Shown piece by piece: positions 28,156 through 42,514 of a DNA stretch of 64,000 bases. Both the position numbers and the translations under genes were made by a program. Location: the NCBI GenBank assembly GCA_958295905.1, contig OY282382.1, positions 3,806,001-3,870,000 on the forward strand. The letters are read 5' to 3'. Position 1 is the first letter of the stretch, and every line of letters begins with the position of its first letter. This stretch comes from an uncultured Vicinamibacterales bacterium. GTDB lineage: Bacteria; Acidobacteriota; Vicinamibacteria; Vicinamibacterales; UBA8438. The notes below the pieces were generated by a model, which was not told the origin of the DNA, searched no databases, and worked only from the letters and a program-made list of their open reading frames with translations.

Positions 28156-28464
28156 ACGCGCGGCGATCCCGGAACGGGACGCTCCGGGACGCTCCTGCCC
28201 GCGTCCTCTCCCCGCCCGGGGGCGCCCCGGGTCCGCGACCGATGCGCGGGCGCACGTCGGATTTCCTCTGAAAATACGGGGGGACGGCAGGAGGGCCTCT
28301 GGAGGCATCGGGTTGGCGATTCCGCGCCGTTCTCGGCATCGCGGCCCCCTCCCGAACGAGCTTTCTCGGGCTTTGGCGCCTGGGATCCCTCGGGGAGCCG
28401 GTTCCAGCGGCGGCGCCTCGCTTTCTTGACGTGCGCCCCCGATGCTCCCCGATGCGCCGCGCGC

Positions 28465-28493
28465 TGGCGTCCGGGCGGCCGTCGCGCTACAAT
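28465..28493 (+). promoter_or_regulatory. promoter of the PKD-like secreted protein gene
   Basis: TGGCGT (28465-28470), 17 nt, TACAAT (28488-28493), then 6 nt to the ATG at 28500. The arrangement matches that before the glycosyltransferase gene (TACAAT, 6 nt, start). Confidence 0.4.
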
Positions 28494-28499
28494 CGAGCC

Positions 28500-28937
28500 A
28501 TGCATGAATCTGGCTCGCGGCGGTGCGCCGGCGGCATCCCCGCGGGCTTGGCGCTGCTCGTCCTCGCGCTCCCGGCGGGCGCGGCCGCCCAGGATGGCGA
28601 ACGGCCGGAATTGACCCTTCGCGCCCGTCCGAACGTGGCGTTCGCCCCGAACCCGATCTCGTTCACGGGCCTGTTGCGGGGGGGGGCGGACGACTACGAG
28701 GACTTCTACTGCGTCAGCGCCGAGTGGGACTGGGACGACGGGACGGTATCGGAGAGCGTCTTCGACTGCGAGCCCTACGAGCCGGGCGTGAGCGAGATCC
28801 GGCGCCGTTTCTCGCGGCGGCACACCTACCAGAGCGCGGGACGCTACGAGATCCGGCTCAATCTCAAGCGCCGTGACGACGTGGTCACCTCGGCCCGGGT
28901 CCGGGTCACGATCCAGGGCGGCCGATTCCCCGACTGA
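28500..28937 (+). CDS. secreted protein with a PKD-like fold
   Basis: A 145-residue exported protein. A signal peptide is clear (GGIPAGLALLVLALPAGAAAQ, cleavage after AAA/AAQ near residue 30). The mature part has FAPNPISFTGLLRGG, AEWDWDDGT and a late HTYQSAGRYEIRLNL, the pattern of one PKD/immunoglobulin-like beta sandwich (W-D-W-D-D-G and H-x-Y-x-x-x-G-x-Y). Two Cys residues (in YCVSA and FDCEP) could form a disulfide. Probably a periplasmic or surface binding module; partner unknown. The start follows a TACAAT box by 6 nt. Its 3' end overlaps the JAMM gene tail-to-tail by 32 nt. Confidence 0.75.
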   Translation: MHESGSRRCAGGIPAGLALLVLALPAGAAAQDGERPELTLRARPNVAFAPNPISFTGLLRGGADDYEDFYCVSAEWDWDDGTVSESVFDCEPYEPGVSEIRRRFSRRHTYQSAGRYEIRLNLKRRDDVVTSARVRVTIQGGRFPD

Positions 28938-29346
28938 CCGTCGTGCGCAGCTCGACCGATCTCAATCGGCCGCCGTCGAGGCGGTAGGCCCGTACTTCCG
29001 ACAGGGCCGGCGACGCGATTACGTACAGCAGCCCGGTGTCGTCGGCTTCCCGCGTATCCGTCGCGGACGGCAACGGCGGTGATGCGGGATGGGAGTGATA
29101 GGCGCCGATCACCGCGAGGCCGACCCGACGGGCGGTCCTGATGGCGGCGAAGTGGTCGGCCGGGTCGATCAGATACCGGGTACGACTCTGCCGCAGGTTG
29201 CGGGCGGGATGGGCGCGCGTGATCTGCGTGCCGGTACCCGTGGCGAGACCGATGAGCAGACCGCAGCACTCGTCCGGCAGGGCGCGGCGCGCATGCTCGA
29301 GAATGCCGTCGCGCACCGCGCGGCGGATATGAACGACGTCGCCCAC
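28906..29346 (-). CDS. JAMM (M67) family metallopeptidase
   Basis: A Zn-dependent isopeptidase-like protein of about 146 residues. The JAMM motif YHSHPASPPLPSATDTREA gives the His-x-His and Asp zinc ligands, and the Glu in LPDECCGLLIG is the catalytic acid. Prokaryotic members remove sulfur-carrier or ubiquitin-like tails, or cleave cysteine conjugates; which applies here is unknown. The start is uncertain: the GTG at 29346 (VGDVVHIRRAVRDG) is preferred because the frame upstream (to 29424) runs into a direct repeat. It lies 119 nt downstream of tyrA and may be the tail of the aromatic operon. Confidence 0.82.
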   Translation of the reverse strand: MGDVVHIRRAVRDGILEHARRALPDECCGLLIGLATGTGTQITRAHPARNLRQSRTRYLIDPADHFAAIRTARRVGLAVIGAYHSHPASPPLPSATDTREADDTGLLYVIASPALSEVRAYRLDGGRLRSVELRTTVSRGIGRPGS

Positions 29347-29359
29347 GGTAAGGGATGCT

Positions 29360-29465
29360 CCCCTGCTCCGGCGGACCCGGCTCCGCGGGGTCCGCGGGAG
29401 CGCAGAACGGGGTGAGGGACGCATGGACGATGCCCCCCTGCTCCGGCGGACCCGGCTCCGCGGGG
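29360..29465. repeat. 31-bp direct repeat between tyrA and the JAMM gene
   Basis: CCCCTGCTCCGGCGGACCCG plus 11 more bases occurs at 29360-29390 and 29435-29465 (period 75). Each unit is itself a near-palindrome (CTCCGGCGGACCCGGCTCCG region). The second copy abuts the tyrA stop codon. On the minus strand the repeat could fold downstream of tyrA, but no T-run follows. Confidence 0.85.
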
Positions 29466-30401
29466 CTACTCCTGCCGCCGATCGCCGCGCAGCCGGGCCA
29501 GATGCGCCCGCCAGACACCGGCCGAGTCGAAGACGCGATCGATTTCCTCCCCGGTATCCAGCCCCGAACGGAGCGCCTGCAGCTCGGCGATGAAGTCGTC
29601 GAGGGCATCGCCGACGGCATCGGCGTTCGAGCGGCAGATGTCCCGCCAGATGTCCGGCGGGCTCGACGCGAGTCGGGTGGCGTCGAACAATCCCCGCCCG
29701 GTCAGCGCCAATCCGCGTTCCCCGGCCCGGTTGCCGACGACGTGCATGAGGGCGCTGGCCGCGAGCTGCGGCAGGTGGCTGACGAACGCGAGAAGCCTAT
29801 CGTGCTCCGCCGGGTCGAGCACGTGGGGCTCGGCGCCGAGGGTCCGGACGAACTCAGACAACCGCTCCAACACCCCTGCCGCCGCCGCGCCGTCCGGCGT
29901 GAACAGCCAGGGGCGCTTGACGAACAGATCCGGACGGGCGTGTTCGATCCCGCCCCGCGGGGCCCCGCCGAGGGGATGTCCACCCACGAACGTGAACCGC
30001 GACGGAAGCTGGCGGGCCGCCTCGACCGTCGTGCGTTTGGTGCTCCCGACGTCGGTCACCACGGCGGCGGTCGTGACGTGCCGCTCCAGCTCCGCGAGCC
30101 GGTCTATGTTCTGTTCGATCGGCGCCGCGAGAATGACGAGATCGGCCCCGGCCATGACGACCGGGTCGTCGGCGGCCACGTCGATCGCGTGGAGCACCAT
30201 CGCCTTCTCGAGGACCTCCTTGCGATCGACGCCGATGACGAGGCAGGAAGGCCAGTGCCGGCGCGCCGCGAGCGCGATCGAGCCGCCGATGAGCCCGAGC
30301 CCGACGATCGCCACCTTGTCGAACGGCGGCGGGCCCGCCGCCGCGGGTTGCGGCTGGAGCATCGGAAGGGTCCGGGGAGGGTCGGTCACCGGTTTCACCA
30401 C
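29466..30401 (-). CDS. tyrA: prephenate dehydrogenase
   Basis: Oxidative decarboxylation of prephenate (or arogenate) on the route to tyrosine. A 311-residue protein with the Rossmann motif VAIVGLGLIGGSIALA (about 30-45), VILAAPIEQN, VTDVGSTKR and the catalytic-His region FVGGHPLGGAPRGG, then SHLPQLAASALM. It has no ACT or mutase domain. GTG start at 30401 or 30398; the first 28 residues are Pro-rich. It follows the DAHP synthase gene by 3 nt as the last clear member of the aromatic operon. Prephenate versus arogenate and NAD versus NADP are not decidable by eye. Confidence 0.93.
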   Translation of the reverse strand: MVKPVTDPPRTLPMLQPQPAAAGPPPFDKVAIVGLGLIGGSIALAARRHWPSCLVIGVDRKEVLEKAMVLHAIDVAADDPVVMAGADLVILAAPIEQNIDRLAELERHVTTAAVVTDVGSTKRTTVEAARQLPSRFTFVGGHPLGGAPRGGIEHARPDLFVKRPWLFTPDGAAAAGVLERLSEFVRTLGAEPHVLDPAEHDRLLAFVSHLPQLAASALMHVVGNRAGERGLALTGRGLFDATRLASSPPDIWRDICRSNADAVGDALDDFIAELQALRSGLDTGEEIDRVFDSAGVWRAHLARLRGDRRQE

Positions 30402-30404
30402 GGG

Positions 30405-31454
30405 TCAGGTCCCCCAGCCGCGATAGGCGGCCGGCTCGAGACAGATGCTGCGCCCGATGGCCGGCGCGATGATCCGCAGCTCGGCCATGAGGCGGTCGAA
30501 CTGGGCCGGGAAGATCGACTGCGCGCCGTCGCTCAGGGCATGGTCGGGATCCGGATGGACCTCGATGATCAGGCCGTCGGCGCCGGCCGCGATCGCCGCG
30601 CGGGCCATCGGGGCGACCTTGTCGCGCAGGCCGGTGCCGTGGCTGGGGTCGGCGATGATCGGGAGATGGCTCAGCTTCTGGACCACCGGGACCGCGGAGA
30701 TGTCCATGGTGTTCCGGGTATAGTTCTCGAACGTCCGGATGCCGCGCTCGCACAGGACGACGTTCGGGTTGCCCCCCGACAGCAGGTACTCCGCCGACAG
30801 CAGCCACTCTTCAATGTTGGCCGAGATGCCCCGTTTGAGGAGAATCGGCGTGCCGCTCCGCCCCAGCTCCCGCAACAGGCTGTAGTTCTGCATGTTGCGG
30901 GCACCCACCTGCAGAATGTCCGCATACCGGGACACCAGCTCGATCTGGCTGACGTCCATGACCTCGGAGACCACCTTCAGGCCCTCGGCGTCGGCCGCCG
31001 CGCGCATCAGCCGCAGCGCCTCCTCTCCCAGCCCCTGGAAGCTGTAGGGCGAGCTCCGCGGCTTGAAGGCGCCGCCCCGCAGCACCTTCGCGCCCGCGTT
31101 CTTCACGGCCGCGGCGGCCGCGCCGATCTGCTCCTCGGTCTCCACCGAGCAGGGCCCGGCCATGACGATCACCTCGTCGCCGCCGACCCGGACCTCACCC
31201 AAGGGAACGGTGGTGTTCTCGGGCCTGAACGTCCGGCTGGCGAGCTTGTAGGGCTCGGTGATCCGCGCGACTTCCTGGACGCCGTCCATCACCTCGATGA
31301 GACGGGCGTCGAACGACCGGACGCCCCCCACCGCGCCCAGCATGCTGCGAAGCTGATCGGTCGACCGGTGCACGTCGAACTGGTGTTCCACCAGGTGCGC
31401 GATGACCCGCTGAATCTGCTCTTCGCTCGCGCGTTCTTCCATGACGACAACCAT
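30405..31454 (-). CDS. aroF: DAHP synthase, type I-beta
   Basis: First step of the shikimate pathway: phosphoenolpyruvate plus erythrose 4-phosphate gives DAHP. The 349 residues have an N-terminal ferredoxin-like regulatory domain (about 1-75, [20 protein letters not shown]), as in Thermotoga DAHPS. A barrel follows with [55 protein letters not shown] and [11 protein letters not shown]. The small N-terminal domain is where Phe/Tyr inhibit in characterised relatives. It sits between the chorismate mutase gene (46 nt upstream) and tyrA (3 nt downstream), so pathway entry and the tyrosine branch are co-expressed with trp. Confidence 0.95.
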
Positions 31455-31500: not shown

Positions 31501-31815
31501 TCACCCCGACGAACGCTCCAAGCGCCGGGCTTCGTCGATGATGCGCTCGAACAGCCGCGTCATCGCGTCCCCATCGAGCGGGCCGGCGTTCTCCGACCGC
31601 ACGTGATTCAGCACCTCGCGCTCGCGATGCGGCTGATAGACCTCGAGCCCCACGGTCTCCTTGAGCCGTCCGATCTCCTGCGCACAGCCCGCCCGCTCGT
31701 TCAGCAACGCCACGAGCCGGGCGTCGAGCTCGTCCATCCGGTTCCGAATCTCCGTGATCCGCCGTTCCACCGCCGCCGCCCCGGGCGACGCGGATTGCCG
31801 GTTTCCTGACGTCAT
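31501..31815 (-). CDS. chorismate mutase (AroQ type)
   Basis: Converts chorismate to prephenate. A 104-residue all-helical protein: [20 protein letters not shown] carries the first catalytic Arg, [13 protein letters not shown] the Lys region, and [18 protein letters not shown] the second Arg/Glu set. No prephenate dehydratase domain is attached. The start is taken as the ATG at 31815, with GGGAGGGAGG about 10 nt upstream. The ATG at 31848 (MTQSREGG) is the alternative; further upstream is repeat sequence. It lies between trpA (162 nt away) and the DAHP synthase gene. Confidence 0.9.
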
Positions 31816-31977
31816 GCCGCGCGCGCCTCCCTCCCGGCTCTGGGTCATCGCCGTCCTTCGGCTCCGCCCGCCGCCGAACCAACCCACGGCGCCTTCCACG
31901 GCGCATGCTCCCAGCCTGGAAATCGTGGCCTGCGGCTTCGCCGGCCGCCCGGCCAATCGTCCCGCCGGCGCGCCGTT
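31816..31977. repeat. hairpin-repeat relatives in the trpA/chorismate mutase gap
   Basis: The 162-nt gap contains pieces shared with the hairpin repeat family: CGAACCAACCC near 31874, CCTGCGGCTTCGCC near 31930, and GCCGTTCTACGGCGCC at about 31970-31985. The last is a palindrome that includes the trpA stop codon. This copy is more diverged than those at 46.9 and 53.6 kb. Confidence 0.5.
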
Positions 31978-32790
31978 CTACGGCGCCGGCGCCAGGTCTG
32001 CGTCGCCCTTCAGCCAGGCCACGTAGCCCTCGACCGCGGTCACCAAGCCGCTCGAGTCCGCCCGGCGGGCGATCGTGTCCACCAGCGCGCTTCCCACCAC
32101 CCCGGCGTCCGCGTACCGTCCCACCTCGCGCAGATGCTCGGGGCTCGACAGCCCGAATCCGATCGCCACCGGCAACGCCGTCACCGCCCGAATCCGCTCC
32201 ACGAGCCCGCGCACGCCGGCCGCCATCTCCGCCCGCGCACCCGTCACCCCGAGCCTCGAGATGCCGTAGAGAAAACCGCGCCCCAGATCGGCCGCCCGCC
32301 GGATCCGATCGTCGCTCGTCGTCGGGCTCAGCAAGAAGATCGGATCGATGCCCGCGTCCACGACGGTCCGACGAAAACCGTCTCCTTCTTCAATCGGCAG
32401 ATCGAGCATGAGCACGCCGTCGACGCCCGCCGCCGCCGCCCGGGCGGCGAAACGGTCCGGCCCCAGGCGGAGCACGGGGTTCGCATAGGTGAACACCACC
32501 ACCGCGGCGCGGAGCTCCGCGCGCACGCTCTCGATGAGATCCAGCGTACCGGTCAGGGTCGTGCCGGACGCCAGGGCGCGTTCCGAGGCGCGCTGGATGA
32601 CCGGTCCGTCGGCCAGGGGATCGGAGAACGGCACGCCGACCTCGATCACGTCCGCCCCGGCCCGGTCCAACGCCCGGAGAATGGCCCCCGAGCGCTCCCG
32701 ATCGGGATCGCCCGCGGTGACGTAGGTCACCAGACCGGTGCGGCCGGCGGCGCGCAGGTCCGCAAAGCGGTCCGCAATGCGCGAGCTCAT
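31978..32790 (-). CDS. trpA: tryptophan synthase alpha subunit
   Basis: Cleaves indole-3-glycerol phosphate to indole, which is channelled to TrpB. The 270-residue barrel has the catalytic Glu50 in [15 protein letters not shown] and Asp61 next to it. Also visible are [21 protein letters not shown] and [13 protein letters not shown]. The ATG at 32790 overlaps the trpB stop by 4 nt (ATGA), indicating translational coupling. The stop codon lies within a GGCGCCG-type palindrome of the local repeat family. Confidence 0.96.
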
Positions 32791-34064
32791 GCCTTCGACT
32801 CCGATCCGGAGGCCCCGCCGGCCGCGGCGGGGTCGACGCCGAACCCCCGGTCGCGCGCGATCTCGACGTCCTTGTCCCCTCGGCCGGAGAGGTTGACGAG
32901 GAGAACCGCCCGCGGATCGCAGCCCGCGGCCACCGTTTCGACATGGGCCAGCGCGTGCGCCGACTCGAGCGCGGGAATGATCCCTTCCAGCCGCGCCACC
33001 CGCTGAAACGCCTGCAGCGCCTGGTCGTCCGACACCCAGGTGTATTCCGCGCGCCCGAGATCGCGCAACCACGCATGCTCGGGGCCCACCGCCGCGTAGT
33101 CCAGACCGGCCGACACCGAATGGGTCGGCTCGATGTTGCCGTGCAGGTCCTGGAGGATGATGCTCCGCGTGCCCTGCAGGACCCCGACCGCGCCGGTGGC
33201 GAACCGCGCCGCATGACGGCCGGAGACGAGGGCCTCGCCGCCCGCCTCCACCCCGATCAACCGCACCTGGGCGTCGTCGACGAACCCGTCGAAGATGCCC
33301 AGGGCGTTGCTGCCGCCGCCCACGCAGGCGACGACCGCCGCCGGCAACTGCCCGGTCAGGTCCAGGATCTGCCGCCTTGCCTCGCGTCCGATGACCGACT
33401 GGAACTCGCGCACCATCAGCGGGTAGGGATGAGGACCGAGCACCGACCCCAACAGATAGTAGGTGTCGTAGACGTTGGTCACCCAGTCGCGCATCGCCTC
33501 GTTGATAGCGTCCTTCAGGGTCCGGCGGCCCGCGTCCACGCCGGTCACCTTCGCGCCGAGCAAACGCATCCTGACCACGTTCAGGGCTTGGCGCGCCATG
33601 TCCTCGGCCCCCATGTAGACCTCGCAGGCGAGCCCCAGCAGGGCGCAGGCGGTGGCGGTGGCCACCCCGTGCTGTCCCGCGCCGGTCTCCGCCACCACCC
33701 GGCGCTTGCCCATCCGGACCGCCAGCAGCGCCTGCCCGAGCGCGTTGTTGATCTTGTGGGCGCCGGTGTGCGCAAGGTCCTCGCGCTTGAGGAACACCCG
33801 GGCGCCCCCCAGTTGCTCGGACCACCGGCCGGCTTCGTACATCGGAGTCGGGCGGCCGACGACCCGATCGAGGAGGATGACGAGCTCCTGCCGAAAAGCC
33901 GAATCGGCGCGGGCGGCGAGGTACGCCTCTTCCAACTCCGCCACCGGCGCCACCAGGGTCTCGGGAACGAAGCGGCCGCCGTAGGCGCCGAAGTATCCGC
34001 GCGCGTCCGGATCCCGTTGCCCGAAGACCGCGCCGACCGCGGCGGTGGTGTCCGTCGTCGTCAT
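32787..34064 (-). CDS. trpB: tryptophan synthase beta subunit
   Basis: PLP enzyme joining indole and serine into tryptophan. The product has 425 residues from the ATG at 34064. [14 protein letters not shown] opens the fold, the PLP lysine is Lys104 in [12 protein letters not shown], and [12 protein letters not shown] is the phosphate-binding loop. It is the classical TrpB1 type that pairs with TrpA. The frame is open to 34217, but the added residues are Arg/Gly-rich and lie in a 165-nt gap after trpF. That gap holds a CCCCCC...GGGGGG hairpin and could carry an internal promoter. It overlaps trpA by 4 nt. Confidence 0.96.
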
Positions 34065-34229
34065 AGGCTCCCTCGTCACGCCTTGTCGCGCCGGGCGTCC
34101 TTCAACCCGCCGGCGCCCCCCGGCACCCTGGGGGGAGTGATCGATACCAGGTGGCCAACCGCACCCAGGCGCAGCCCGTCTTCCACGATCCCGTTCGCGC
34201 GCTTGGCGGGACAGCACCGGTAGTCTTCG

Positions 34230-34877
34230 TCAGCGTCCCTGACCAACCGGTGCGGTTGCCGCCGGTTCCCCGGCCGCCAAAGCGGCAAAGAATGCGCGCA
34301 GGCGCTCCGGGTCCTTCACCCCCGGCTCCGACTCCACCCCCGACGACACGTCCAGGCCGTAGGGCGCGACCTGCCGCACCGCGTCGGCCACGTTCCCGGC
34401 CCGCAGCCCCCCCGACAACACCAGCGGACGCCGCCGCGCCATCCGCGCCGCGCGGCTCCAGTCGACCCGCCGCCCCGTGCCCCCCATCCGCACCGGGTCG
34501 AACGCATCGACGAGGAGGGTCGCCCCGGACCACACCGATTCCGGATCTTCGCCGCCGCCGGACAGCCGCACCGCCTTGATGACGCGCCGGCGGCACCGCC
34601 GGCACACCGCGGTCGACTCCCGCCCATGCAGCTGCACCGCGCCGAGCCCGACCTCGTCGGCGATCGCGTTGACTTCGTCGACCGGCTGATCGACGAACAC
34701 CCCCACCCCGCTCACGTGCGGCGGCAGTCCGCCGAGGATCGCCGCCGCGGCCTCCGGCTCCACGAACCGCGGGCTGCGGGGCCAGAAGATGAAGCCCACC
34801 CACGCCGCGCCGAGCCGCGCCGCGAGGTCCGCGTCCTGCGGCCGCGTGATGCCGCAGATCTTGACCGGCACGGTCAT
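34230..34877 (-). CDS. trpF: phosphoribosylanthranilate isomerase
   Basis: Third step of tryptophan synthesis, an Amadori rearrangement. A 215-residue barrel starting MTVPVKICGITRPQDADLAA, with the catalytic Cys in KICGIT and the catalytic Asp in LVDAFDP. VGVFVDQPVDEVN and LSGGLRAGNVADAV are family features. The ATG at 34877 overlaps the trpC stop by 4 nt. The last residues are Ala/Pro-rich and extend slightly beyond the usual end. Confidence 0.95.
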   Translation of the reverse strand: MTVPVKICGITRPQDADLAARLGAAWVGFIFWPRSPRFVEPEAAAAILGGLPPHVSGVGVFVDQPVDEVNAIADEVGLGAVQLHGRESTAVCRRCRRRVIKAVRLSGGGEDPESVWSGATLLVDAFDPVRMGGTGRRVDWSRAARMARRRPLVLSGGLRAGNVADAVRQVAPYGLDVSSGVESEPGVKDPERLRAFFAALAAGEPAATAPVGQGR

Positions 34878-35743
34878 CGCGCGCCCCCCGCCGACACGCC
34901 CCCGGCGGCCGGGGCGGTCTCCGGCGCCGGGACCGCGGCCAGCAGATCGCGGAGGGCGGTCCCGGGGTCGGGGGCGGTCATGAAGGTCTCTCCGATCAGG
35001 AACGCCGGGTAGCCGGCCGCGCCCAGCCGCACGAGGTCGGCGCCCGTCCGCAGACCGCTCTCCGCCACCCCGATCGCGCCCGCCGGCATCTGCCCGGCGA
35101 GCCGGCGCGATGCCTCGACGTCGACGGCCAAGGTCCGCAGGTTGCGGTTGTTCACCCCGATGACCCCCGCCCCGGCCCGCGCCGCCCGGTCCAGCTCTTC
35201 CCCGTCGTGCACCTCGACGAGGACCCCCAGCCCCAACGCCGTCGCCCGGGCGCGAAGCGCGCCGAGCTCGGCGTCGTCGAGGGCGGCGGCAATCAGCAGC
35301 ACCGCGTCGGCGCCGGCCGCCGCCGCCTCCAGCAACTGATACGGGGCGACGATGAAGTCCTTGCGGAGCACGGGGATGCCGACGGCGGCCCGCACCGCGC
35401 GCAGGTGGTCGAGCGACCCGTCGAAGAACGTCGGCTCCGTCAGCACGGAGACCGCCGCCGCCCCGTTCCGTTCGTAGGCCGCGGCGATGGCCTCGGGCCG
35501 GTAGTCGCGGCGAAGAATCCCCCGCGAAGGCGACCGGCGCTTGCACTCCGCGATGACGTTGGCGCCGCCGGGTGCGGTCAGGGCCGCCTCGAACCGGGCC
35601 CGGCCGTCGAGGGCCGGCGGGACCCTGGACGCCAGGACCGTCTCCGGACAACGGCGCCGGCGGTCGCGCACCGCCTGCCGGGTGGCGGCGACGATCGTCG
35701 CCAGCAGGTCCGGGCCGGGGTCGAAGCGCGGGTTCGACGTCAT
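34874..35743 (-). CDS. trpC: indole-3-glycerol phosphate synthase
   Basis: Ring closure that forms indole-3-glycerol phosphate. A 289-residue barrel: the catalytic Lys is in VIAECKRRSPSRG, the second Lys in VLRKDFIVAPYQL, and the catalytic Glu in VLVEVHDGEEL. GVNNRNLRTL and AESGLRTGADLVRLG complete the phosphate site. It is not fused to trpF, which follows as a separate, overlapping gene (ATGA). The C-terminal tail (about 265-289) is Ala/Pro-rich and probably disordered. It overlaps trpD by 4 nt. Confidence 0.96.
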   Translation of the reverse strand: MTSNPRFDPGPDLLATIVAATRQAVRDRRRRCPETVLASRVPPALDGRARFEAALTAPGGANVIAECKRRSPSRGILRRDYRPEAIAAAYERNGAAAVSVLTEPTFFDGSLDHLRAVRAAVGIPVLRKDFIVAPYQLLEAAAAGADAVLLIAAALDDAELGALRARATALGLGVLVEVHDGEELDRAARAGAGVIGVNNRNLRTLAVDVEASRRLAGQMPAGAIGVAESGLRTGADLVRLGAAGYPAFLIGETFMTAPDPGTALRDLLAAVPAPETAPAAGGVSAGGAR

Positions 35744-36761
35744 GCCTCCCCCTCCGCGGCGGTCGCCGCCACCAGCCGGTCCAGCGTCTCCTGCGCCCGG
35801 CCGGCGTCGAGGGCCGCGGCGGCCGTCGCGACCCCGTCCCGCAGGTCCGCGGCGCGCCCCGTGATGAACAGACCCGCCGCCGCGTTGGCCAGCACCATGT
35901 CCCGCGGGGGACCCGGCCGGCCCGCCAGCACGGCGCGGGCGATGGCCGTGTTGTCGTCGGGAGACTCCGCGCGGAGGTCCCCGATCCCGGCCACCGGCAA
36001 CCCGAAGTCGTCCGGATGCAGGAAGAAGCTGCGGACGATGCCGTCGCGGCACTCCGACACCTTGGTGTGCCCGGTGGTGGAGATCTCGTCCAGGCCGTCG
36101 GCGCCGTGCGCCACCCAGGCCCGTTCGGTCCCGAGGTCGGCGAGGGCCCGGGCCAGCAGATCGGTGTGGTCGGGCCGCGACACCCCGACGAGTTGCCGGA
36201 CGACGCCGGCCGGATTGGTCAGGGGGCCGAGCAGGTTGAAGACGGTGCGCACGCCGAGCTCGCGCCGGGTGGGGGCCGCGTGACGCATCGACGGATGGAA
36301 GGTGGGCGCGAACAGGAACGCGATGCCGCAGGTGTCGAGGCAGCGCTCGACGACCGGCGGGGGCGCGTCAACCGCGACCCCGAGGGCGCCGAAGAGATCC
36401 GCGCTCCCGCACCGGCTCGAGACGGCGCGGTTGCCGTGCTTGGCGACGGTGACGCCGCAGGCGGCGAGGACGAGGGCGGCAAGCGACGAGACGTTGAACG
36501 TCGACGCGCGATCGCCGCCGGTGCCGCAGGTATCGAACCGCGGGCGGCGACCCGCCGGCACCGCGACCGCGTTCGCGCGCATCGTCGTCGCCAGCCCGAC
36601 GATCTCGGACGGCCGCTCCCCCTTCATGGACAGCGCCATCAGCAGCCCTGCGATCTGGGCGGGGGCGGCGCGCCCCGCCATGATCTCCTGCATCGCGTCC
36701 GCCGCCTCGCCGACGCTCAGGTCCCGGCGGCGGTGCAGCCTTTCTATCAGATCGGCGAACA

Positions 36762-36762
<1 letters not shown>
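35740..36762 (-). CDS. trpD: anthranilate phosphoribosyltransferase
   Basis: Transfers phosphoribose from PRPP to anthranilate. The 340 residues show an N-terminal helical domain (LIERLHRRRDLSVGEAADAM), the PRPP loop DTCGTGGDRASTFNVS, KHGNRAVSSRCGSADL, and the metal/PRPP segment HGADGLDEIS. Length is normal, and it is not fused to trpG. The start codon overlaps the trpG stop (TGATG), and the 3' end overlaps trpC by 4 nt. Confidence 0.96.
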
Positions 36763-37328
<566 letters not shown>

Positions 37329-37343: not shown

Positions 37344-38816
37344 TCAGACCATCTCCAGGGCCCGCAGGAGGGCCGAGGCCTTGTCCCGGGTCTCGTTGTA
37401 CTCCGCCGTCGGGTCCGAATCGGCGACGATGCCCGCCCCCGCCTGCACGCGGGCCCGGCCGTCGCGCATGGTGATGGTCCGGATGGTGATGCAGCAGTCG
37501 AGGTTGCCCGCGAAGTCGACGTAGCCGATGGCCCCCGCGTAGATGCCCCGGCGCGCCGGCTCGAGGTCCGAGATGATCTCCATCGCGCGTATCTTCGGGG
37601 CGCCCGACACGGTGCCGGCCGGGAAGCACGCGGCGAGCGCGTCGAGCCGGTCGCAATCCTCCCGCAGCCGTCCCTCGACCCGCGAGACCAAGTGCATGAC
37701 GTGCGAGTAGCGCTCCAGCTCCATGAACTGCGCCACCCGCACCGTCCCGAAGTCGGACACCCGCCCGATGTCGTTCCGGCCGAGGTCGACGAGCATGACG
37801 TGCTCGGCCCGCTCCTTCTCGTTCCGTTTCAGTTCCTCCGCCAGCCGCCGGTCCTCCGCGTCGTCCCGGCCGCGGGGGCGGGTGCCGGCAATCGGGTGCG
37901 TGATCACCCCGCGCCCCTCCACCCGCACGAGCATCTCCGGCGACGAGCCGATGATCGACAGCCCGCCCATGCGGATGAAGTACATGTACGGCGAGGGGTT
38001 CACGTGCCGCAGGGCGCGGTAGACGCTGAACGGGTCGGCGGTCACCTCGGTCTCGAACCGCCGCGACAGGACCACCTGGAAAATGTCGCCGTCCGCGATG
38101 TGGTCCTTCGCGGTCCGCACCGCCCGCTCGAACGCGTCCTGGCTGGTGTTCGAGCGGACTTCCCGCGGACCCGACGCGGTCACCGCCGGCTCCGACAGGC
38201 TGCGCTCCAGCTCCTGTTCGAGGAAGTGGATCCTGGCGCAGGCGAAGCGGTAGGCGGCGTCGAGGTCGGCGCCGGGGTCGACGCGGGCGTTGGCGATGAC
38301 GAGTATCCGGTGCTTGACGTGGTCGAACGCGAGAATCGTGTCGAACACCATGAAGCCGGCTTGGTCGTCCCCGCTCGTGGGCGCGCCGCGCCGCTCCCAA
38401 ACCCCCTCGAGCCCCGGCTCGAACCACTGGGCGGCGTCGTAGCCGAGGAAGCCGACGGCGCCGCCGGTGAACCGCGGCATTCCCGGCACGGTCGGGGCCC
38501 GGTAGTCGCTCATGACGCGCCGCAGCCGGTCGAGGAAGGGACCGCGGTCGGCGGTGGTGACGCCGCCCTCTTCGGTGATGGTCTCGCCGTCCCGCGCCCG
38601 CAGCACGAGGAACGGATCCTTGCCGAGGAACGAGTAGCGCGCGACCTGCTCGCCCCCCTCCACGCTCTCGAGCAGGAACGCATAGCCGGCATGCTCCGCC
38701 ACCTTGAGGAACGCCGACAGCGGGGTCAGCAGGTCCGCCAGTATCTCGTTGCAGACCGGCACGAACGTGCCGCGCCCGGCCAGCTCCCGAAACGTCTCGA
38801 ACGAAGTGATGCTCAT
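37344..38816 (-). CDS. trpE: anthranilate synthase large subunit
   Basis: Makes anthranilate from chorismate. The 490 residues contain the tryptophan feedback motif LLES (residues about 48-51, in FLLESVEGGE), so the enzyme is probably inhibited by Trp. The chorismate-binding half has GDIFQVVLSRRFE, PSPYMYFI, ITHPIAGTRPRG and FPAGTVSGAPKIRAMEI. It follows aroDE with a 4-nt overlap (ATGA) and precedes trpG by 15 nt. Expression is predicted to be set by the attenuator in front of aroDE. Confidence 0.97.
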   Translation of the reverse strand: MSITSFETFRELAGRGTFVPVCNEILADLLTPLSAFLKVAEHAGYAFLLESVEGGEQVARYSFLGKDPFLVLRARDGETITEEGGVTTADRGPFLDRLRRVMSDYRAPTVPGMPRFTGGAVGFLGYDAAQWFEPGLEGVWERRGAPTSGDDQAGFMVFDTILAFDHVKHRILVIANARVDPGADLDAAYRFACARIHFLEQELERSLSEPAVTASGPREVRSNTSQDAFERAVRTAKDHIADGDIFQVVLSRRFETEVTADPFSVYRALRHVNPSPYMYFIRMGGLSIIGSSPEMLVRVEGRGVITHPIAGTRPRGRDDAEDRRLAEELKRNEKERAEHVMLVDLGRNDIGRVSDFGTVRVAQFMELERYSHVMHLVSRVEGRLREDCDRLDALAACFPAGTVSGAPKIRAMEIISDLEPARRGIYAGAIGYVDFAGNLDCCITIRTITMRDGRARVQAGAGIVADSDPTAEYNETRDKASALLRALEMV

Positions 38817-40309
38817 GCCGGCGTATCCTGCGCGGTTCGGTTCCGCGATGCCAGGGCGGCGCGCGCCGCGTTCAGGAACAGGTCCGTGGACGGACGTGCG
38901 CCGCACCACCACTCGAACTGCCGCACCGCCTGGGCCGCGAGCATGTCGAGGCCGCCGAGGGTGCGGCAACCCGCGGCCTCCGCGTCGCGCATCAGCCGCG
39001 TCCGCGCGGGGTTGTAGACGAGGTCGTAGACGGTGCTCCCGCCCGCCAGCGCCTCCGCCGGCACCGGGGTGTCGCCGACGTGCGGCGCGGTTCCGACCGG
39101 CGTGGTGTTCACCAGCAGGTCCCAGGACCCGGGCGGCGGAGGCAGGCCGCCCGCGGCGCCGCCCGCGAGGGCCGCGACCTCGGCGGCGCGCGCGGGACGG
39201 CGGGCGCGCACCGTCACCGCGCCCCCCGCGCCGGCCAGACCCAATGCCACCGACCGGGCGGCGCCGCCGGCGCCGAGCACGCAGCACCGGAGCCCCTCGA
39301 CGCCGCCGCGCGCCTCGAGCGGCGCGAGAAAACCGGCGACGTCGGTATTCAGTCCCTGCCACCTGTCCCCGTCGGCCCGGAGCGTATTCACCGCCCCGGT
39401 CCGCCGGCCGACCGGATCGACGTCGCCCACATGGTCCAGAATCGATTCCTTGAACGGCGCGGTGACGCTGAGACCCTGCACGTCGAGCGCCTGCACGAGC
39501 TCCATGAGGTCGCCGGGGCCGGCCGCCTCGAACGGCACGTAGATCGCATCGAGCCCGGCGTCCGCGAAGCCGGCGTTGTGCATGACCGGCGACAGCGAAT
39601 GCGCGATCGGGGAGCCGGCCACGCCGTAGACCGCCGTCGACGCCGACGTCCGATGACACCGGTAGCGCTCGATCATGTCGGACAGGGGAATCTGCCCGGG
39701 GGCGACCCCGTCGCCGGCATAGGTCCAGGCCGATCCGAACCGCGCCGGCAGCAGGCGGGTCGGCACGCCGATCGGCCCCATCCCCACCAGCACCGCCGGC
39801 TCGCCCCGCGTGCCGCGCGCCAGCCGATGCAGCCGCACGACGTCGGCGCCCGAACGGCTGTGGGCGGCGATCTTGACGACTTCCGCCCCGGTGGCCCGCA
39901 TCGCCCGGTACGGCGACTTCAGATCGGCCGGGGTGGCCTCGAAATCGTGCATCGACAGCACGACGTTCCGGCCCCGCCGATTGGCGATCAATCGGTCGAA
40001 GCCGCCGCGCCATTCGAGATCCACCCAGTCGGCGCCGAGCTCGAACGCGCGCTGCAGGATGCGCCGCCGTTCTTCTTCCGACCCGGCGAACCGTCCGCCC
40101 TCCCAGGCCGGCCGGCACGTGATCAGGGTCGGGACGGACCGCCCGGCGAGCGCGCCCGCGACGTCGAGGTCCCGCACGCCGTCGAGCCGCAACTCGACGA
40201 GGTCGGCACCGCGCACCGCGTCCCGGGCCGCGCGCAGTCCGGCGGTGGTCTCAGCGGTCACGGTCGCGCACAGTCGAGCCTGGGACATGGGGAGCCGCAA
40301 AGTCTTCAC
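38813..40309 (-). CDS. aroDE: bifunctional 3-dehydroquinate dehydratase (type I)/shikimate dehydrogenase
   Basis: Catalyses steps 3 and 4 of the shikimate pathway in one 498-residue chain. Residues about 8-225 are a type I dehydroquinase: Glu in VELRLDGV, His in SMHDFEATP and the Schiff-base Lys in EVVKIAAHS. Residues about 228-490 are AroE: GSPIAHSLSPVMHN, the catalytic Lys in SVTAPFKESIL, LNTDVAGF and the Rossmann loop VLGAGGAARS. The fusion resembles plant and chlamydial enzymes. The GTG at 40309 is favoured because GGAGAGG lies 10 nt upstream, inside the 3' arm of the attenuator hairpin; an ATG at 40288 is the alternative. It is the first structural gene of the operon. Confidence 0.95.
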   Translation of the reverse strand: MKTLRLPMSQARLCATVTAETTAGLRAARDAVRGADLVELRLDGVRDLDVAGALAGRSVPTLITCRPAWEGGRFAGSEEERRRILQRAFELGADWVDLEWRGGFDRLIANRRGRNVVLSMHDFEATPADLKSPYRAMRATGAEVVKIAAHSRSGADVVRLHRLARGTRGEPAVLVGMGPIGVPTRLLPARFGSAWTYAGDGVAPGQIPLSDMIERYRCHRTSASTAVYGVAGSPIAHSLSPVMHNAGFADAGLDAIYVPFEAAGPGDLMELVQALDVQGLSVTAPFKESILDHVGDVDPVGRRTGAVNTLRADGDRWQGLNTDVAGFLAPLEARGGVEGLRCCVLGAGGAARSVALGLAGAGGAVTVRARRPARAAEVAALAGGAAGGLPPPPGSWDLLVNTTPVGTAPHVGDTPVPAEALAGGSTVYDLVYNPARTRLMRDAEAAGCRTLGGLDMLAAQAVRQFEWWCGARPSTDLFLNAARAALASRNRTAQDTPA

Positions 40310-40311
40310 AC

Positions 40312-40347
40312 AAAAAAAGCCTCTCCAACCGGTGGGCCGGAGAGGCT
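40312..40347 (-). terminator. attenuator terminator of the aromatic/trp operon
   Basis: Minus strand: AGCCTCTCC (40339-40347), a 12-nt loop, GGAGAGGCT (40318-40326), then seven T (40312-40318). It is a textbook intrinsic terminator placed only 3 nt before the aroDE GTG. Its 3' arm contains GGAGAGG, the probable aroDE ribosome binding site. Confidence 0.9.
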
Positions 40348-40429
40348 GTCGCTGTCTGCTGCGGGTGTGGATTCAGGCGGGCAGACGCACCTCTCCGGGC
40401 TGGCTGAACCAGTACCCCCACCAAGCCCG
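40337..40429 (-). promoter_or_regulatory. antiterminator and pause hairpins of the attenuator
   Basis: CCGGAGAGG (40390-40398) inside the leader peptide is perfectly complementary to CCTCTCCGG (40337-40345), the 5' arm of the terminator. A second 6-bp match, GTCTGC with GCAGAC, extends this antiterminator. CGGGCT (40424-40429), directly before the Trp codons, pairs with AGCCCG (40396-40401) to give the alternative first hairpin. A ribosome held at the Trp codons would cover CGGGCT and free the antiterminator. Confidence 0.85.
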
Positions 40430-40486
40430 CGCTCCGGCGCCCGCTGCAAAGACGATCCGATACGGCGACGAACTTGTCTGCTCCAC
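40373..40486 (-). CDS. trpL: Trp/aromatic leader peptide of the attenuator
   Basis: A 37-codon frame from a GTG at 40486 (AGGT 4 nt upstream) to TGA at 40373-40375. Residues 21-27 read Ala-Trp-Trp-Gly-Tyr-Trp-Phe, so three Trp, one Tyr and one Phe codon fall within six codons. They sit right after the first strand of the pause hairpin, and the stop codon lies between the antiterminator strands. The composition fits sensing of tryptophan and perhaps all three aromatic amino acids, matching an operon that makes Trp, Tyr and common precursors. Identified from position and structure; no homology search was done. Confidence 0.88.
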   Translation of the reverse strand: MEQTSSSPYRIVFAAGAGARAWWGYWFSQPGEVRLPA

Positions 40487-40529
40487 GATTACCTGCTTTG
40501 CCGCCGACCCGTCGCCGAAAGCGGCTTTC

Positions 40530-40559
40530 ACCGTAGCAAACGCCGCCGGCCGGTGTCAA
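40530..40559 (-). promoter_or_regulatory. promoter of the aromatic/trp operon
   Basis: Minus strand: consensus -35 TTGACA (40554-40559), 18 nt, -10 TACGGT (40530-40535). The predicted start near 40523 gives about 36 nt before the leader peptide GTG and about 210 nt before aroDE. Confidence 0.65.
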
Positions 40560-40669: not shown

Positions 40670-42514
40670 ATGAATCTGTCCAGACCGCTCCTGCCGCTTG
40701 CCCTCGCGACCGGCGGGTTCCTGGCCGTGCTGCCGGCGGCCACCGTCACCATGCCGGTGGACGAGGTGCGGGCGGGCATGCAGGGTACCGGCGTCACCGT
40801 CTTCGACGGCGCCGAACGGAGCGAGTTCACGGCCGAGATCATCGGCGTGCTCGAGAACTCGTTCGGGCCGCGCCGCAACCTCATCCTGGCCCGGCTCGAC
40901 GGCGGCCCCCTGGCCGCGAGCGGGGTGATTCAGGGCATGAGCGGAAGCCCCGTCCATATCGACGGGCGGCTCGTCGGCGCCGTCTCCTACGCTCTGGGCT
41001 CGTTCTCCAAGGCCACGATTGCCGGCATCACCCCCATCGAAGAGATGCTGCGCGACGATACGCAGGCGCCGGCGCGGGTCGCCGACGCCGCGCTGAACCT
41101 CGTTCTGCCGCTGGCGGCGGACACCCTGACGGGCCTGTTGCCCATCCGCCTCGAGCGTCCGGAACCGTTCGCGGCGCGGCGGAGCGACCTCGACGCGCTC
41201 GGCCTGACGACCGGCGCCGGAGCCTCGTTCGGGGGACGGCTGCGCCCCATCACGACCCCCCTCAGCATGAACGGGTTCACACCGGCCGCGTTCGACCGCA
41301 TCGCGCCGCTTTTCCGCTCGGCGGGTCTGGCCCCGGTCGTGGGAGGGACGGCGGCCGGCCGGGCCGGGGCGCAGTCCGACGCCCCGCTCGTGGCCGGCGA
41401 CGCGGTGGGCGTGAGTCTCATGCAGGGCGACCTGTCGATGGCGGGAACCGGCACCGTCACCCTCGTCGAGGGCGGCCGGGTGTACGCCTTCGGGCACCCC
41501 TTCTACAACCTCGGGTCGTCCCGTTTTCCGATGACCCGCGCCTACGTCCACACGGTGCTCCCGAGCCGGGCGATCTCCTCCCGCATCGCCACCGTCGGCG
41601 AAACTCTCGGCACCATCGACCAGGACCGTTCCAGCGGCATCAGCGGCAGTCTCGGTCCGGGTCCGCGCCTGGTGCCCATCCGCGTCACCCTCGACGCGCC
41701 GGACCGGCAGCGGACGGACACCTTCGACTTCCAGGTCGTGGAAGACGACCTCTTCACGCCGCTGCTCGCGTACAACGCGATGTTGAACACCCTGTTCTCG
41801 CACCATCGGCAGGTGGGCGCGGCGACCTACGCGGTGCGCGGAGAGGTCGCCCTGGAAGGACATCCGCCGGTCCGGTTCGAAGAGACGTTCGCCGGCGCCG
41901 CGGCCACCGTCCTCGCCTCGGTGTACGTCTCGGGACCGTTGACGGCGCTGGTCAACAACGGGCTGGAACCGGTGACGGTCGAGCGGGTGGACGTGTCGGT
42001 CACCGCGTGGGACGGGGCCCGGACCGCGGTGCTGGAGCGCATCTGGCTGGACGATCCCCGGCCGCGGCCGGGGCGGACGGCGCCCCTGCGTCTGGCCATC
42101 CGCACCCGCAACGGCGAGGTGGTCATTCGGACCGTGATGATCGACCTGCCGTCGGCGGCGCGCGGCCCGCTCCAGGTGCTGGCGGCCGACGGCGCGACCC
42201 TGGCGCAGCAGGAGCGGCAGCAGGCGGGACAGGCGGCGCGCGCCACGGACCTCCGCCAGCTCATGGACGCGCTGAACACCGCGCGGCGCAACGACCGCCT
42301 CTATGTTCAACTGCGGCGCAGCGACGCCGGTGCGGTCGTGAACGGCCGCCGGCAGCCCTCCCTCCCCCCCTCGGTGCTGGAAGTGCTGGGGACCGATCGC
42401 TACGGCGGCGGTCTCGCCCGGATGAGCATCGCCGCGGTGCGCGAGTGGGAGGTTCCGGTCGACCATGTCGTCTCCGGGGCGCGCGTCCTGACGCTGGACC
42501 TCGGTATGCCCTAG
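40670..42514 (+). CDS. exported SpoIVB-type (S55) peptidase domain protein
   Basis: A 614-residue exported protein. The N-terminus is a signal peptide (LLPLALATGGFLAVLPAA). Residues 28-110 hold the S55 signature: EVRAGMQGTGVTVFDG, then GVIQGMSGSPVHIDGRLVGA, where the Ser of GMSGSP (89-94) is the proposed nucleophile. A second motif, VYAFGHPFYNLGSSRFPM (about 260), recurs in S55 proteins. The C-terminal 250 residues look beta-rich, followed by a short coiled coil (QERQQAGQAARATDLRQLMD). SpoIVB cleaves SpoIVFA in spore formers; here no sporulation context is seen, so the substrate is unknown. It precedes the beta-propeller and SpmA-SpmB genes on the same strand. Confidence 0.85.
   Translation: MNLSRPLLPLALATGGFLAVLPAATVTMPVDEVRAGMQGTGVTVFDGAERSEFTAEIIGVLENSFGPRRNLILARLDGGPLAASGVIQGMSGSPVHIDGRLVGAVSYALGSFSKATIAGITPIEEMLRDDTQAPARVADAALNLVLPLAADTLTGLLPIRLERPEPFAARRSDLDALGLTTGAGASFGGRLRPITTPLSMNGFTPAAFDRIAPLFRSAGLAPVVGGTAAGRAGAQSDAPLVAGDAVGVSLMQGDLSMAGTGTVTLVEGGRVYAFGHPFYNLGSSRFPMTRAYVHTVLPSRAISSRIATVGETLGTIDQDRSSGISGSLGPGPRLVPIRVTLDAPDRQRTDTFDFQVVEDDLFTPLLAYNAMLNTLFSHHRQVGAATYAVRGEVALEGHPPVRFEETFAGAAATVLASVYVSGPLTALVNNGLEPVTVERVDVSVTAWDGARTAVLERIWLDDPRPRPGRTAPLRLAIRTRNGEVVIRTVMIDLPSAARGPLQVLAADGATLAQQERQQAGQAARATDLRQLMDALNTARRNDRLYVQLRRSDAGAVVNGRRQPSLPPSVLEVLGTDRYGGGLARMSIAAVREWEVPVDHVVSGARVLTLDLGMP

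Follow-up and report, generated by a model that had tools for sequence, protein, structure and literature searches.

Does the DNA ahead of an aromatic amino acid supraoperon in an uncultured member of the Vicinamibacterales control that operon and, if so, which amino acids does it sense? On the minus strand of the 64,000-nucleotide stretch that we analyzed (the window), an initial annotation had recognized the parts of a ribosome-mediated attenuator. Comparison across relatives provides the anatomy of this leader, its conservation, the covariation of its stems, the placement of its codons, and the content of the operon behind it. Together, these data support, with a probability of about 0.9, a ribosome-mediated transcription attenuator that would set the aromatic supraoperon by charged tRNA-Trp and, less certainly, tRNA-Tyr.

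The leader and its operon

The promoter, the 37-codon frame with its GTG start, the antiterminator, and the run of seven T had been placed correctly on the minus strand by the initial annotation, and the observation of attenuator parts in the window is real (Table 1). The competing terminator is also present, but its stem, described as 9 bp, has 13 bp and a CACC loop (-24.1 kcal/mol); the antiterminator pairing is perfect, with a computed energy of -19.2 kcal/mol. The leader frame encodes MEQTSSSPYRIVFAAGAGARAWWGYWFSQPGEVRLPA, in which WWGYWF occupies codons 22 to 27. Its GTG, 44 nt past the -10 box, is the sole in-frame ATG, GTG, or TTG 3' of the predicted transcription start.

Table 1. Features of the attenuator region and the neighboring genes in the window
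Feature	Position	Strand	Basis or remark
Promoter TTGACA-18-TACGGT	40530..40559	-	Sequence, kept in relatives; TTGACA 40559-40554, TACGGT 40535-40530, spacer 18
Leader peptide frame	40373..40486	-	Sequence, comparison; GTG start at 40486, 37 sense codons, TGA stop ending at 40373
Possible pause hairpin 1:2	40390..40430	-	CGGGCT with AGCCCG; -15.9 kcal/mol in the window
Control codons Trp-Trp-Gly-Tyr-Trp-Phe	40406..40423	-	-27 to -12 from GGAGAG, within the order-wide aromatic-codon window; codon starts Trp1 40423, Trp2 40420, Tyr 40414, Trp3 40411, Phe 40408
Strand 2 (antiterminator 5' arm), CCGGAGAGG	40390..40398	-	Inside the leader frame; perfect complement of 40337-40345
Strand 3	40335..40347	-	Antiterminator 3' arm CCTCTCCGG (40337-40345) and terminator 5' arm
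Strand 4 and T7, intrinsic terminator	40312..40330	-	Strand 4 40318-40330, T7 40318-40312; 13-bp stem, 40347-40335 with 40330-40318; 3:4 covariation
aroDE (fused 3-dehydroquinate dehydratase and shikimate dehydrogenase), first operon gene	38813..40288	-	Pfam PF01487, PF08501, PF18317
trpE	37344..38816	-	Pfam; TIGR00564 above cut-off
trpG, trpD, trpC, trpF, trpB, trpA	31978..37328	-	Pfam
Chorismate mutase	31501..31956	-	PF01817, 3e-24; exact start uncertain
DAHP synthase	30405..31454	-	PF00793
tyrA (prephenate dehydrogenase)	29466..30401	-	PF02153, PF20463
Gene with SpoIVB peptidase S55 domain	40670..42514	+	Divergent; adjoins the operon

Behind the leader, the gene order is aroDE-trpEGDCFBA-chorismate mutase-DAHP synthase-tyrA, and it continues through tyrA in each of the 20 genomes examined from the order, with a few single genes undetected. 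The terminator cannot serve the S55 peptidase gene, which is divergent. The roughly 1.1 kb after tyrA (28308-29466), where one might expect another gene of the aromatic pathway, gave no Pfam match in the frames tried.

Conservation across the order

Named records place the source in the Vicinamibacterales of the Acidobacteriota, as the initial annotation had guessed at phylum level. Of 60 related genomes, 58 yielded aroDE, and the regions upstream of it were inspected; a covariance model (R1), in which the terminator is the sole structural element, was made from 53 aligned leaders (alignment A1). At E <=0.01, R1 matched 144 of the 162 genomes of the order, mostly at 1e-10 to 1e-25, in 82 of 86 genera and in 94 of the 100 better genomes; R1 was trained on part of the searched genomes, and these fractions count all members, seen and unseen. 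The alignment upstream of aroDE that had been proposed as a check thus finds the leader, its Trp codons, and its stems conserved. Several of the 18 genomes in which R1 had no match are incomplete, and in some (G018 and G024, for example) aroDE runs off a contig or is broken.

In the 6.3-Mb source genome, R1 found a single copy, at an E value of 8.8e-22; no second copy was seen, the next match being at 0.43. Because nothing else in the genome scored better than 0.4, and because the same layout precedes aroDE in almost all relatives, the attenuator in the window is more than a chance arrangement. A TTGAC-N17/18-TAnnnT promoter precedes the leader in 89 of 99 relatives (1.25 expected in shuffled sequence), and a short frame, predicted to be translated, is open in 95 of 100 leaders.

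Outside the order, R1 gave weak matches only; these were inspected individually, and several (L117, L124-L126, and L129-L134) were dropped as resembling ordinary terminators or chance. Inspection by eye found no such leader before aroDE in families f17, f18, and f19 of the class. Two records titled Bifidobacterium breve and Acidimicrobiia (L239 and L270) carry the operon and leader; both are probably mislabeled, as the contigs match Vicinamibacterales genomes.

Two stems that share one strand

If the leader works by alternative folding, compensatory changes should be found in both stems, as the initial annotation had suggested looking for. Across the aligned leaders, both the antiterminator (2:3) and the terminator (3:4) covary above controls, which were shuffles and slid pairings. 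For the terminator, 95.3% of cells are paired and eight pairs have two-sided changes, in 31 cells compared with 8.5 ± 2.3 after shuffling and 3 to 6 after sliding. For the antiterminator, 83.8% of cells are paired, with a covariation score of 0.215 versus 0.172 ± 0.009 for shuffles and at most 0.108 for slid pairings. Its two-sided changes number 16 versus 7.3 ± 2.0 after shuffling, but sliding by +1 still gives 15, so this stem is better told from its controls by score and by percentage paired. Examples are GCCGAGGGGGCG/CGCCCCTTCGGC versus CTGGAGAGGC/GCCTCTCCAG, and in relatives with an altered strand 3 (L044, L047, L048, and L049), strand 2 is altered too. Strand 3 is common to both stems, making them mutually exclusive. 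Compared with dinucleotide shuffles, the region from strand 2 to strand 3 has a mean stability z score of -2.1.

The position of the reading frame relative to strand 2 also fits ribosome control. The stop codon falls 8 to 22 nt past the first base of strand 2 in 96 of 100 leaders, and a ribosome footprint reaches about 12 to 15 nt ahead of the A site. With this spacing, strand 2 would be left exposed by a ribosome held at the control codons but masked by one at the stop.

Taken with the comparative data, this geometry leads us to infer stalling, an order of folding, termination in vivo, and the identity of the acting amino acids as follows. When charged tRNA-Trp or tRNA-Tyr is scarce, the ribosome would stall on the Trp/Tyr cluster 12 to 33 nt before strand 2 and leave strand 2 free, allowing 2:3 to form first and polymerase to read on. 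When charged tRNAs are plentiful, the ribosome would cross strand 2 and reach the stop a short way past it; strand 3 would pair with strand 4, and transcription would end at the T run.

Both states, whose folding the initial annotation had proposed, were computed with the ribosome placed at the aromatic codons and at the stop. In a transcript that has only just reached the end of strand 3, the RNA outside the ribosome is predicted to adopt 2:3 (-28 to -30 kcal/mol) if the ribosome sits on Trp1, Trp2, Tyr, or Trp3. Moving Phe into the A site shortens 2:3 (-18.3), and moving the stop there abolishes 2:3 and leaves the terminator. In the complete leader, however, equilibrium favors the terminator for all of these positions, even when strand 2 is free. 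The switch must therefore be kinetic, with 2:3 winning by forming first, and the accepted model of attenuation is likewise a race between ribosome and polymerase (PMC1183508).

Control codons

Codon statistics came from 100 leaders (alignment A2), using an 8-codon window from -33 to -12 relative to strand 2; apart from the per-family table, codon and pair counts are uncorrected for relatedness. At least two Trp codons occur in 92 of 100 leaders, a figure biased upward where frames compete because the leader frame was chosen by Trp counts; Tyr and Phe were not used in that choice. In the 93 leaders in frame with strand 2, the combined share of Trp, Tyr, and Phe is 16% at -33, 43 to 83% across -27 to -12 (83% at -15 and 43% at -12), and then 4, 2, and 3% at -9, -6, and -3. 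Aromatic codons are thus gone from 9 nt before strand 2 onward, which is where a stalled ribosome would cover it. In about 7 of 100 leaders, the Trp codons lie in another frame relative to strand 2, and the reading of those is less certain.

The codons also follow the genes. Trp and Tyr codons precede aro, trp, and tyrA genes, and in sister family f16 of the same class (L334, L335, and L336) a single aro-his-trp superoperon is preceded by a leader with many His and aromatic codons. In L334, the order is aroDE, thiF, hisZ, hisG, further his genes to hisIE, trpE, trpGD...trpA, chorismate mutase, and DAHP synthase (hisZ assigned by TIGR00443; hisD, hisC, hisA, and hisF from translations alone). 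The f16 leaders end in HHHRHHS, FHRYHRT, FHYHWHP, HHHRYHA, FHHHRHYD, FFHFRYHP, or similar; their strands 2 and 3 are again complementary but differ in sequence (GGGTTTCCTGGAGAG and CTCTTCAGGGAACCC), and strand 2 comes after the stop codon. That the codons differ where the operon differs is the strongest argument that they would be read for their amino acids. A natural swap from Trp/Tyr to His between sister families also makes the matching of codons to operons testable across many genomes.

Which amino acids, and by what kind of control

A simpler version of the same attenuator would sense Trp alone, with the Tyr and Phe codons as passengers. Trp is the commonest residue, at 33% of the control region, and Phe, at 5.3% there versus 6.8% in the preceding 14 codons, is not enriched. 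Tyr behaves differently: it makes up 11.2% of codons between the first Trp and strand 2 versus 4.0% in the preceding 14, and it occurs in the 8-codon window of 90 of 100 leaders (about 20 expected) and in 14 of 15 families. Its preferred place is -15, occupied by Tyr in 52 of 93 leaders and by Trp or Phe in another 25, and its spelling as both TAT and TAC indicates that the residue, not a base alone, is kept. The operon itself includes chorismate mutase and tyrA, and the f16 leaders mix His with aromatic codons before a mixed operon. We therefore regard sensing of Trp alone as unlikely, though a serious alternative, and the attenuator is best read as sensing Trp plus Tyr. The operon would very probably be switched on when tryptophan is short and probably when tyrosine is short. 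The earlier proposal that one leader may sense all aromatic amino acids was thus supported for Tyr, but its Phe part found little support, and we rejected Phe sensing as a general feature.

Control of another kind would have to account for the same features. A TnaC- or Erm-like arrest peptide, in which the nascent peptide stalls the ribosome and the ligand is a free amino acid or drug, would be in keeping with the conserved WWWY motif and C-terminal GEA, EEA, or EGA residues. However, the latter are encoded by strand 2 (GGAGAGGC and variants) and are explained by RNA pairing; W, Y, and F interchange, their spacing to strand 2 follows footprint geometry, and a stall favoring readthrough at high Trp has the wrong sign for a biosynthetic operon, making this reading very improbable. 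Still more improbable is a simple constitutive terminator next to a short frame that is there by chance, acting as an unregulated limit on the operon. The terminator is indeed the strongest conserved element (mean z of -4.3 against dinucleotide shuffles), but such a device leaves unexplained the conservation of strand 2, the fixed Trp distance, the stop position, the promoter spacing, and the His swap. Least probable of all is a protein- or tRNA-binding attenuator such as TRAP or a T-box, even though the same genes are so controlled in other phyla: neither needs a coding frame with control codons, no TRAP repeats were recognized by eye, and nothing in the region matched Rfam at the gathering cut-off. 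The best subthreshold Rfam score, 16.3 bits for Phe_leader against a cut-off of 55, was dismissed. Ribosome-mediated attenuation, in comparison, is strongly supported across more than 140 genomes.

Synchronization without a conserved pause hairpin

The pause hairpin described in the initial annotation can be drawn in the window, but it is not kept across relatives: in 96 leaders folded against dinucleotide shuffles, the 1:2 region had a mean z of -0.22 (standard deviation, 1.08). In E. coli, the pause hairpin would bring ribosome and polymerase into step, which poses the question of how an attenuator without a conserved one is synchronized. Among the 89 relatives with the promoter pattern, 36 in-frame ATG or GTG codons lie 9 to 14 nt past the -10 box (L044, L052, and L085 have examples), compared with 3 for the other two frames together. 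If transcription begins about 7 nt past the -10 box, this suggests that leader mRNAs with such starts are nearly leaderless. One tentative view, to which we give somewhat less than even odds, is that these leaders form an attenuator type specific to the phylum, whose control codons follow operon content in evolution and whose synchrony may come from a translation start near the 5' end, not from a pause hairpin. The pattern is not universal among members, and the window leader lies outside it.

Other loci of the phylum carry leaders of related appearance. Trp-rich leaders (SWWWY, NWWWC, GWWWC, and SWLWWSW) with a terminator precede a TrpB-like gene (NF009057 family) in loci from other families (L115, L116, L121, L122, L123, and L212). 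In genus g162 of family f58 (L118, L119, and L120), the leader MTRPAILLLLVLVLVLVTQGAN (from L119) and a GGGGGCT/AGCCCCC stem stand before ilvE (TIGR01122), likely a branched-chain amino acid attenuator.

Comparison with known systems

The mechanism is of a known kind; what is new is the family, its Trp plus Tyr content, the unconserved pause hairpin, and the His swap. Rfam holds no such family. Attenuators predicted in Acidobacteria were without functions (PMC2965389), and others were predicted before tyrA supraoperons in other phyla (PMC1173090). The openly accessible literature searched gave no description for this phylum; a subscription paper, for example Lopatovskaya 2010 (cited in PMC4833913), might contain an earlier prediction. 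Among the sources searched, this is the first concrete function for an attenuator in the Acidobacteriota.

The closest likeness is to the E. coli trp leader and the Rfam trp leader family, which share the promoter, the short peptide with adjacent Trp codons, the 2:3 antiterminator competing with an intrinsic 3:4 terminator, and the trp genes downstream. The initial description as a complete E. coli-type attenuator is not right on two points, the pause hairpin and the placement of strand 2. The leader described here differs in lacking a sequence match to that family, in having Tyr codons conserved beside Trp and no conserved pause hairpin, and in having strand 2 within the frame with the stop beyond it; aroDE is the first gene, and the operon reaches tyrA. 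Actinobacterial trp leaders (mentioned in PMC4833913), likened here by description, are likewise leader-peptide attenuators of trp genes outside the Proteobacteria, in another phylum. The Bacillus aromatic supraoperon (PMC1173090) also joins trp and aro genes with tyrA in one transcription unit under attenuation, but its sensor is the TRAP protein, whereas here it would be a ribosome on a leader peptide.

The thr and ilvGMEDA leaders of E. coli likewise combine control codons for more than one product of the operon behind them. Here the codons are Trp plus Tyr, before a supraoperon of the common, Trp, and Tyr branches, and in f16 they are His plus aromatic.
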